Source: Gammaproteobacteria bacterium (GTDB taxonomy: Bacteria; Pseudomonadota; Gammaproteobacteria; JAJPIJ01). From it: a stretch of DNA of 54,973 nucleotides. Below are positions 8,023 through 47,767 of the stretch, piece by piece (positions within the stretch are counted from its first letter, which is position 1; each line of letters starts with the position of its first letter). The notes under the pieces were generated by a model that ran no database searches, was not told where the DNA came from, and saw only the letters and a program-made list of their open reading frames with translations. The stretch spans positions 1-54,973 of the forward strand of contig JAJVHZ010000007.1 in assembly GCA_022072255.1 (NCBI GenBank), in the 5' to 3' direction. The translations under genes were made by a program, and so were the position numbers.

Positions 8023-8064
8023 CTCGCGCCCTCCTTTCTCTGGTCGAACAAGAAAAAAGTTTGC

Positions 8065-8140
8065 GAGCGCCGTTCCGAACGACTCTGACGGGAATGCCTC
8101 GAGCCTGGCGTCCGGTGGGTCGCTGCAGCGCTCCTCAAGG
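8065..8140 (-). ncRNA. SAH riboswitch in the ahcY leader
   Basis: On the minus strand CCTTGAG (8140-8134) pairs with CTCGAGG (8103-8097) to form P1. The conserved GAGGAGCGCTGC (8136-8125) and GCCAGGCTC (8109-8101) are present. GAGCGC (8133-8128) can pair with GCGCTC (8070-8065) to form the pseudoknot that follows the AACGG element. A short GCG/CGC helix (8123-8121 with 8110-8108) gives P2. This matches the SAH riboswitch class known upstream of ahcY in beta- and gammaproteobacteria. These ON switches are thought to expose the ribosome site when SAH binds; the ahcY GGAGG is about 35 bases downstream. A TATACT at 8155-8150 would place transcription start at the aptamer's 5' edge. Confidence 0.93.
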
Positions 8141-8149
8141 CAGGCCGCG

Positions 8150-25138: not shown

Positions 25139-25327
25139 AATTCTCTGGGGTGTACGTCAGCAGGCCGGGTATTCTTGAGCCTATACGTTACACCTACCCG
25201 GAGTCGACCGAAAAACGGCGATGTTGAGCTATGCCGCCACGAGCGGAAAGCCTGATTCGCCCGGAACGACTCCAATCTTGAACCTGCGGTTCAAGTCGAT
25301 GGTCGGCAACGGCATCCCGGAGATCCA
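25139..25327 (+). ncRNA. ssrS: 6S RNA
   Basis: About 189 bases directly after zapA. The closing ends pair: TTCTCTGGGGTG near 25141 and GGCATCCCGGAGA near 25311-25323, as in E. coli (CUCUGAGAUG with CAUCUCGGAG). The 5' strand of the central region has TTGAGCCTATA (E. coli UGAGCCGAUA), and the 3' strand has the conserved small hairpin CTTGAACC-GGTTCAAG. 6S RNA mimics an open promoter and traps sigma-70 RNA polymerase in stationary phase. Ends are estimated by alignment to the E. coli RNA from memory and could shift by a few bases. TAATAG at 25133-25138 may be its -10. Confidence 0.95.
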
Positions 25328-29687: not shown

Positions 29688-29762
29688 TGGCTGGGGCGCC
29701 AGGATTCGAACCTGGGAATGCCGGAATCAAAATCCGGTGCCTTACCACTTGGCGACGCCCCA
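29688..29762 (-). tRNA. tRNA-Gln (TTG anticodon)
   Basis: 75-base tRNA with CCA encoded at 29690-29688. The acceptor stem TGGGGCG pairs with CGCCCCA, the T-arm has GGTTCGAATCC, and the anticodon stem CCGGA/TCCGG encloses a loop reading TTTTGAT, giving anticodon TTG. It sits between ispE and prs, the same place as in Pseudomonas. Confidence 0.97.
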
Positions 29763-45077: not shown

Positions 45078-46550
45078 ATGAGACACACTGCCCGCCTGCT
45101 CGCGATCCTCGGCGTTGCCGCCACCTTCCTCGCCAGCGGCTGCGCCACCAACCCGGTCAGCAAGCGCTCCGAATTCGTCCTGATGTCCGAGGAACAGGAA
45201 CTCGCCATTGGCCGCCAGATGCATGCGGAAGTATTGCAGGAGTACGGGGAGTACAAGGACCCGAAACTGCAGGCCTATGTCCAGCAGGTCGGCGAGAGCG
45301 TAGCTGCGCTGAGCGATCGGCCCCAGCTCATCTACCGCTTCACGGTCCTCGACAGTCCGGAGGTGAATGCCTTCGCGCTGCCCGGCGGCTACATATATAT
45401 CACTCGCGGGATCATGGCCTACTTCAACTCGGAGGCCGAGCTGGCGGCAGTCCTTGGCCATGAAATCGGACACGTCACGGCGCGCCACGCGGTGCGCCAG
45501 TACACCGCCGCGCAGGCCACAGGAATAATCGCGACTATCGGCTCCATTTTTGTACCCGGGCTCGGCTCCTACGGTGGCAGCCAGCTCATCAATATCCTGG
45601 GAACGGCGCTGCTGCGCGGCTACGGGCGCGAACACGAACTGGAGGCCGACGGGCTGGGCGCGAAATACATGGCCAAGGAGGGCTACGACCCGATGGCGAT
45701 GCTCAATGTGCTCGGCACGCTGAAAAATCAGGAGATCCTCGAGAACCAGGTCGCCAGGCAGGAGGGGCGCGAACCACGCGTCTACCACGGCGTGTTTTCC
45801 ACCCACCCGGACAGCGACACGCGCCTTCAGGACGTCATCGGGGCGGCGCGCCAATTGCAGGCCGGCGGCGCCAAGCGACTCGACCGCGAGCGCTACTACT
45901 CCTACATCGACGGCATGATCGTCGGCGACAGTCCGCGCGAAGGATTCGTGCGCGGCAACGCCTTTTATCATCCGGATCTCGGTTTCGGGCTACGCTTTCC
46001 CAAGGGCTGGAGCGTGAAGAATTACCCTGATCGCATCCTGTTCGTCGCCCCGGCGGGCAAGGCAATGATGCAGATGGGCGCCGAGGACCTTAACAAGCGC
46101 ATGTCTCCCAAGCAGTTCATGACGGATAAGATGGGGCTGAAAAAGCTGTCCTACGACGGGACGATAAGCCCGGCAGGACTCGACGGCTACACGGCGGTGG
46201 CGCCGGCGCGCACCAGCAAGGGGACGCGCGACGCCCGCTTCTCGGTGGTCTTCTTCGACAAGAAGGCCTACTTGTTCGCCGGGGTGGTCGAGGCCGGCGG
46301 CAGTGTCGCTGTCTACGACAACGCCTTTCTCGATACCGTCAGTTCCTTCCATCCGCTGACGGCGCAGGAGCGCGAATCGCTGAAGCCGCTGCATCTGCGG
46401 ATCACCCCCGCCACGGCCGGAGAAACGTTCGGGGAGTTGGCGAGCAGATCGCCTTTTCAGACCAATGCCGAGGCGCGATTGCGCCTGCTCAACGGCTACT
46501 TCCGCGGTGGCGAGGTGCCAGCCGGGGACCTGATGAAGGTCGTCGAGTAG
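45078..46550 (+). CDS. M48 family metalloprotease, lipoprotein
   Basis: 490-residue predicted lipoprotein (signal peptide ending LASGC, Cys22). The zinc motif HEIGH is in AAVLGHEIGHVTARHAVRQ and the third ligand is in REHELEADGLGAKYM, so it is an active-site-complete, BepA/LoiP-related protease of the periplasm or outer membrane. After about residue 280 there is a second domain with beta-rich sequence (FYHPDLGFGLRFPKGWSV) found in many longer M48 proteins, and no TPR repeats. It follows the thermonuclease gene by 15 bases. Confidence 0.92.
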   Translation: MRHTARLLAILGVAATFLASGCATNPVSKRSEFVLMSEEQELAIGRQMHAEVLQEYGEYKDPKLQAYVQQVGESVAALSDRPQLIYRFTVLDSPEVNAFALPGGYIYITRGIMAYFNSEAELAAVLGHEIGHVTARHAVRQYTAAQATGIIATIGSIFVPGLGSYGGSQLINILGTALLRGYGREHELEADGLGAKYMAKEGYDPMAMLNVLGTLKNQEILENQVARQEGREPRVYHGVFSTHPDSDTRLQDVIGAARQLQAGGAKRLDRERYYSYIDGMIVGDSPREGFVRGNAFYHPDLGFGLRFPKGWSVKNYPDRILFVAPAGKAMMQMGAEDLNKRMSPKQFMTDKMGLKKLSYDGTISPAGLDGYTAVAPARTSKGTRDARFSVVFFDKKAYLFAGVVEAGGSVAVYDNAFLDTVSSFHPLTAQERESLKPLHLRITPATAGETFGELASRSPFQTNAEARLRLLNGYFRGGEVPAGDLMKVVE

Positions 46551-46783
46551 ACCGCCTCGGGCTACAAAGGCAACGGCTCAACCAGGCGATGTCGGGCCTT
46601 GACAATTCGCTGTCCGCAGGATCTGTGGATAAATTTGTTGAAAAGCTGCGGCTATCGACGGCAAAGGCCGGTCCAGACACGAGACCGGATGCTGTTAGTA
46701 AGATCACCCTGCAATTTTTGTCATTTAAAAACAGCATGTTAGCTTCGTGGCCTGCGATTCCTGCAGGCCGTTGCGGCTAACTC

Positions 46784-46802
46784 ATTCTCCCGACGGGAGA
46801 AT
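46784..46802 (+). other. perfect 9-bp inverted repeat
   Basis: ATTCTCCCG-A-CGGGAGAAT followed by TTT. With the central bases unpaired it makes an 8-bp stem with a GAC-type loop, resembling a weak terminator. Confidence 0.5.
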
Positions 46803-46945
46803 TTTCTCCATGTGCATAACCGGGTGGGCGGCGGGAACTAACCGGATGCGCCTGGGTCTTATTTCTCACGTTCCTCATGAACGTGTTCCGCTCAATATCC
46901 TCCCAGAGCGGGACGTAAAGCCCGGTCTCCCCAGCCGGGTGGATT

Positions 46946-46997
46946 GGCCCCGGGACGAAAAAATTCCCCCTATGTGGTTTCTCCCGGGGCCTTCTTT
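46946..46997 (+). terminator. terminator-like hairpin upstream of cytochrome c4
   Basis: Perfect 10-bp stem GGCCCCGGGA (46946-46955) with TCCCGGGGCC (46982-46991), 26-base loop, then TTCTTT. The T-rich tail is interrupted and the loop is long, so it may end a small RNA or act as a switchable leader terminator. Confidence 0.5.
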
Positions 46998-47167
46998 ATT
47001 CCCGCACAGCATTTCCATTGTCGCGATCTCTCGCGTCGTTGACTTGACTCAAGTGCTGGCCCGGTCTGTCTCGTTGTCATCGGCCGGCCGCATCCCAATA
47101 CACAGGCTCATGGTGTATGCTTTTGATTCTAACGGCTACTCAACGACAACAATTCCGAGATTCCAGC

Positions 47168-47767
47168 ATGCATCGGCCATTCCTCGCGTGGATTATTTTC
47201 CTGGCACTGGCAGTCAACCTCCCGGTCGCGAATGCTCAAAGCGGAAGGGAAAAGTCCGCCGCCTGCGCCGCGTGTCACGGTATCGACGGTAACAGTGTCA
47301 CCGCGGAGTGGCCGAAGCTTGCGGGGCAGCACGCCAGCTATATCCGCGCGCAACTTACCGCCTTCAAGTCGGGCGCACGGCAGAACGCGCTGATGAGTCC
47401 CATGGCGACCGGTCTCAGCGAGGAGGACATGAGTCTGCTGGGGGATTTCTTCTCGAGCCAGAAGATCCAGCCCGGCACGGCGAAGAAGGAGTTGCTGGAT
47501 GCCGGTCAGAAGATCTACCGCGGCGGCAATGCAGCAACGGGAGTCCCGGCCTGCATGGCTTGCCACGGTCCGCGGGGCTCGGGAAACCCGGCGGCCGCTT
47601 ATCCCGCACTTCACGGGCAGCACGCCGTCTACACGGTGAATCAACTGAAGGCCTACAAGAACGGCGATCGCACCACGGACGCCAATTCCATCATGCGCTC
47701 CATCGCCGGGCGCATGACCAGTGCCGAGATCGAAGCGGTCGCCTCCTATCTGGAAGGGCTGCACTAG
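47168..47767 (+). CDS. dihaem cytochrome c4-type protein
   Basis: 199-residue exported cytochrome with signal peptide MHRPFLAWIIFLALAVNLPVANA cut near residue 23. Two haem-binding sites: CAACH (residues 33-37) and CMACH (129-133), one in each half, with likely axial Met residues in LMSPMA and IMRSIAG. Cytochromes c4 carry electrons in the periplasm, mainly toward terminal oxidases. The order cytochrome c4-dsbA-GGDEF is the same as in Pseudomonas. Start ATG 47168 is where the signal peptide begins. Confidence 0.94.
   Translation: MHRPFLAWIIFLALAVNLPVANAQSGREKSAACAACHGIDGNSVTAEWPKLAGQHASYIRAQLTAFKSGARQNALMSPMATGLSEEDMSLLGDFFSSQKIQPGTAKKELLDAGQKIYRGGNAATGVPACMACHGPRGSGNPAAAYPALHGQHAVYTVNQLKAYKNGDRTTDANSIMRSIAGRMTSAEIEAVASYLEGLH

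Follow-up and report, generated by a model that had tools for sequence, protein, structure and literature searches.

What does the 617-bp gap (46551-47167), which follows the stop of an M48 protease gene (45078-46550) and precedes the cytochrome c4 gene (47168-47767), encode? In the initial annotation of the window, i.e., the whole 54,973-nucleotide stretch of DNA that was analysed, it was described as a low-GC, hairpin-rich region lacking a gene, and a small RNA or a long regulatory leader was proposed. The description is accurate: the GC content is 0.546 vs 0.66 for the window, and the row of perfect short stems with a 10-bp terminator-like hairpin was located, namely ATTCTCCCG-A-CGGGAGAAT (46784-46802), CACGTTC..GAACGTG, CCGCTC..GAGCGG, CCCGG..CCGGG and the 10-bp GGCCCCGGGA/TCCCGGGGCC (46946-46991). 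Folding was compared with dinucleotide shuffles for the whole gap (z −4.2) and for 46862-47002 (z −4.5), and in neither case was any shuffle equally stable. The open frames of 181, 63 and 82 aa were rejected as coding; they are not conserved, and in the nearest relative the 181-aa frame is broken by stops and frameshifts.

This relative, G001, corresponds among the named cytochrome c4 loci to MAG contig JAJVIQ010000029.1. Identity to it reaches 97% across 46868-46998, 88% in 47091-47167, 84% in a block with a DnaA box as well as in the hairpin at 46784-46808, and 82% in the promoter, while three weakly conserved segments (46551-46599, 46661-46783 and 46999-47090) show 53-63%. With G002 and G003 of the same family and G043 of another family, the window has only the RNA part of the gap in common. 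The proposed small RNA stands, but the conserved RNA occupies only ~130 nt of the 617. The features are collected in Table 1.

Table 1. Features located in the gap between the M48 protease and cytochrome c4 genes (positions in the window).
Feature	Position	Strand	Evidence or remark
Conserved block (TTGACAATT, perfect DnaA box)	46600..46660	+	84% identity to relative; outside the small RNA
Probable terminator of M48 protease gene, ATTCTCCCG-A-CGGGAGAAT then TTTTCT	46784..46808	+	84% identity to relative; outside the small RNA
sigmaE-type (ECF) promoter, GGAACTA-N16-TCTTA	46834..46861	+	10/12 consensus matches
Small RNA gene, ~131 nt	46868..46998	+	5′ end inferred from promoter, 3′ end from terminator; covariance-model match
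Hairpin 1, CACGTTC-CTCAT-GAACGTG	46867..46885	+	Sequence variable among homologues
Hairpin 2, loop UCCUCCC (anti-Shine-Dalgarno-like)	46885..46914	+	7/7 pairs with double changes
Hairpin 3, loop UCUCCCCAG (loop 3 run UCUCCCC)	46920..46940	+	6/6 pairs with double changes
Hairpin 4 and U-rich tail, intrinsic terminator, C-rich loop UUCCCCCU	46946..46998	+	Fold, covariance model, covariation
Probable promoter region of cytochrome c4	46999..47167	+	47091-47167 88% identical to relative

Additional copies of the RNA were obtained by a pattern search for hairpin 3 in 369 genomes of the class, and the named loci (L) come from a scan of the genomes for cytochrome c4. A covariance model (R1) built from six aligned copies, none of the window's lineage, gave a single match in the 55-kb window, at 46885-46998 (59.6 bits, E 2.3e-11; the E-values of this model and the next are rough, both being home-made). 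Matches to R1 were observed in 156 of the 369 genomes (~40%), mostly one copy each and in a few genomes two to four in tandem. In a search of 398 genomes from the phylum, the second model (R2), from 55 copies, matched 44, of which 40 belong to the window's class; the matches in the four genomes outside it, with rough E-values of 8e-5 to 1e-3, are taken as near chance. At L172 and L177 (G173 and G280, same family) four tandem copies lie between polA and engB, each with its own sigmaE-type promoter, which suggests dosage or loop diversification.

The Rfam scan proposed in the initial annotation returned no match in the gap at gathering thresholds, and a permissive search brought up matches far below threshold to anti-hemB (RF02837; 22.5 bits at 46886-46999, cut-off 49.5) and the Betaproteobacteria toxic small RNA (RF02278; 21.1 bits, cut-off 50). 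For the window, ErsA (RF01719, cut-off 50 bits) was not listed even at E ≤ 5, nor was Spot 42 (RF00021, cut-off 80 bits). Of 37 other loci with model matches, Rfam at its cut-offs labels two, both as anti-hemB.

The covariation test that had been called for was carried out on 103 copies. Since the alignment was fitted to the model structure, the counts lean towards that structure; read in this way, 94% of the pair cells are standard, each of the 22 pairs has examples in which both bases have changed, and covariation scores 0.546 vs 0.175 for shuffled and ≤0.083 for slid controls. The bases of the stems vary, and the loops, including the C-runs, are more conserved, so that the functional sequence is likely to be the loops. 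Conservation amounts to 0.82-1.00 for CCUCCC of loop 2 and 0.90-0.98 for CCCC of loop 3; CUCCC is present in the hairpin 2 loop of 90 and CCCC in the hairpin 3 loop of 81 of the 103 homologues. The 10-bp stem of hairpin 4 is followed by TTCTTTATT. A stem of at least 5 bp upstream of the model match, the place of hairpin 1, was found in 51% of the homologues vs 19% of shuffles.

The promoter motif, GGAACTA-N16-TCTTA in the window, is one which we take to be of the sigmaE/AlgU type. In homologues it was scored as GGAACTT-N15-17-TCTAA with a threshold of at least 9 of 12 matches. In the first round it was present upstream in 50 of 56 matches, the corresponding figures being 9% for shuffles and 4% for random windows, and in the second round, with 40 loci unused at first, in 81% of 48 matches vs 8% of shuffles. 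Overall, 88 of the 103 homologues (85%) carry it vs 9% of shuffles, nearly always 40-70 nt upstream and with a spacer of 16 in 76 of the 88. Exact matches to GGAACTW-N15-17-TCTNA number three in the 4.27-Mb genome, the window promoter being among them. Both RpoE (293.9 bits against a cut-off of 236) and Hfq (at 96 bits) are encoded in the genome, and motifs similar to the promoter, judged by eye only, are seen upstream of rpoE genes in the family of this bacterium. As far as the motif is a guide, the window RNA would be under sigmaE control.

The chromosomal position of the RNA was also found to be conserved, with polA, engB or c4 within 3 kb in 38 of 40 additional match loci. The commonest order is polA > RNA > < engB, c4 > dsbA. 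Two derived orders were observed: M48 > RNA > < engB, c4 (L007, L013, L020, L115) and M48 > RNA > c4, the arrangement of the window (L124, L168, L179). The RNA adjoins polA in relatives such as L005, L009 and L014. The genome of the window has polA on a separate contig and no engB match over the cut-off. An EngB/YsxC GTPase over the family cut-off was found in none of four genomes of this bacterial family (window genome and relatives, G000-G003; two genera, 95-98% complete), nor in G004 and G009. The gene is usually conserved and often essential. The probable history is that the RNA descends from that of the polA-engB slot (ErsA, anti-hemB) and that in this lineage polA moved and engB was lost, the RNA being kept beside cytochrome c4. 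Rfam places ErsA (Pseudomonas poae), Spot 42 (Shewanella) and anti-hemB (betaproteobacteria) in the same slot.

Taken together, the out-of-sample model match, covariation, conserved promoter and terminator, and conserved synteny strongly support a free-standing small RNA, the first of the two readings offered initially. We consider it highly probable that the gap encodes an envelope-stress-induced, ErsA-like trans-acting RNA that uses its C-rich loops to pair with ribosome-binding sites rich in G; its expression, sigmaE control, pairing and targets are what we infer. RpoE would transcribe it from ~46868 under envelope stress, and the transcript would stop at its own terminator (~46998). By analogy with related RNAs, the three C-rich loops would contact G-rich, Shine-Dalgarno-like sites in mRNAs and block translation, the targets probably being envelope or metabolic genes. 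It counts against this reading that ribosome-binding sites rich in purines are all open to pairing with such loops, which leaves target specificity unaccounted for. The conserved stress promoter would predict when the RNA family is made. As ~40% of the sampled class genomes carry the RNA and only two of 37 loci are labelled by Rfam, tests of targets and of sigmaE control in tractable relatives would be transferable.

Could the RNA instead be a sponge, its C-rich loops binding a protein or some other small RNA rather than mRNA? Repeated loops and tandem copies are typical of titrating RNAs, and both are seen here: similar loops recur within the RNA, and some genomes have it in tandem. The loops complement Shine-Dalgarno sites, however, and mRNAs are repressed through G-rich motifs by sX13, whose loops are similar (PMC3771888), which leaves titration improbable. 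Still less probable is the second initial reading, a long 5′ leader or riboswitch controlling cytochrome c4 in cis. In the window's lineage the RNA does lie directly upstream of c4 on the same strand, but it terminates by itself 170 nt ahead of c4, next to which a separate block is conserved, and in other genomes it is mostly followed by engB in the opposite orientation, which leaves the leader unsupported. Moreover, the RNA is on the strand opposite to c4 in Neisseriales, and in some genomes polA is the sole adjacent slot gene. That the gap is a mere hairpin-rich spacer of terminators and DNA-level elements is hardly credible, for all its further hairpins and DnaA box, given an RNA stretch 97% identical in the relative and covariation, promoter and slot conserved across the class.

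Several other elements accompany the small RNA gene. The stem of the probable M48 terminator is shorter in the nearest relative. The DnaA box, TTATCCACA on the minus strand at 46624-46632, is the only perfect one in 55 kb (0.08 expected); as a chromosome origin it is unsupported, being single in the window. It is followed by TTTGTTGA, and the block is conserved in a same-genus genome. The extended box pattern occurs once per genome in two same-genus genomes and is absent from two sister-genus genomes. Upstream of cytochrome c4, TTGACTTGACTCAAG (47040-47054) looks like a pair of FNR/Anr-type half-sites and is for the most part preserved in the relative. Elsewhere in the window Rfam identifies 6S RNA at 25139-25327 (+), a SAH riboswitch at 8058-8142 (−) and a tRNA at 29691-29762 (−).

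Among known systems, ErsA (Pseudomon-1, RF01719) resembles the trans-acting RNA proposed here in slot, strand, length class (132 nt) and envelope-stress sigma promoter, a sigmaE/sigma22-type promoter being present upstream of the window RNA. The position between polA and engB is found in homologues of other genomes and not in the window, and loop 2 of ErsA is without the CCUCCC run of the window RNA. R2 recovers ErsA at a rough E of 1e-4 in the same slot, in keeping with the link to a Pseudomonas polA/engB small RNA that had been drawn initially. ErsA is strictly sigma22-dependent (PMC7565897) and with Hfq represses the translation of algC (PMC7565897, PMC8395346).

The RNA anti-hemB (RF02837), ncS04 of Burkholderia cenocepacia, shares the slot, the C-rich loops and the hairpins with a terminator; the window RNA differs in having an additional hairpin at its 5′ end and a longer loop in the terminator. 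R1/R2 matches coincide with the Rfam anti-hemB calls in L054, L065, L066, L077, L074 and L108, and overall they do so with anti-hemB and ErsA calls and not with Spot 42. ncS04 is expressed and is a reported Hfq binder (PMC5688073). The Betaproteobacteria toxic small RNA folds into a double hairpin, and its CU-rich loops complement ribosome-binding sites (PMC5688073); unlike the window RNA, its copies are dispersed and have no tie to the polA-engB slot.

sX13 of Xanthomonas, compared by description only, has three stable hairpins with loops CCCC, CCCC and CCCCC and adjoins polA (PMC3771888). The window RNA likewise has three hairpins with C-rich apical loops, without polA beside it, and UCCCCCU of sX13 loop 3 is also present within its terminator loop. 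Through its C-rich loops sX13 represses mRNAs that carry G-rich motifs close to the start, Hfq being dispensable, and its authors pointed out that it has the polA locus in common with Spot 42 and alpha-r7 RNAs (PMC3771888). sX13 was described as limited to Xanthomonadaceae; a direct search for it in Xanthomonadales c4 loci gave nothing convincing (Stenotrophomonas L076, E 0.37, no polA in the stretch examined).

Spot 42 (RF00021) is found by neither R1 nor R2. It is known from CRP-controlled carbon metabolism and not from sigmaE control. Like the homologues of the window RNA, Spot 42, an RNA of E. coli among others, lies between polA and engB (PMC3295665; Rfam call in Shewanella), and common descent may be considered on the basis of the slot alone. 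Our literature search found no paper uniting ErsA, anti-hemB, sX13 and Spot 42 in one family. The comparison suggests that the separately named small RNAs of Pseudomonas, Burkholderia and perhaps Xanthomonas form one ancient family. We lean, by a modest degree, towards the view that ErsA, anti-hemB and probably sX13 are lineage names of one ancient sigmaE-controlled, C-rich-loop RNA of Gamma- and Betaproteobacteria, with Spot 42 as perhaps a re-wired descendant in the same slot, and that the window RNA is a typical unannotated member which has persisted after its neighbours polA and engB were lost.
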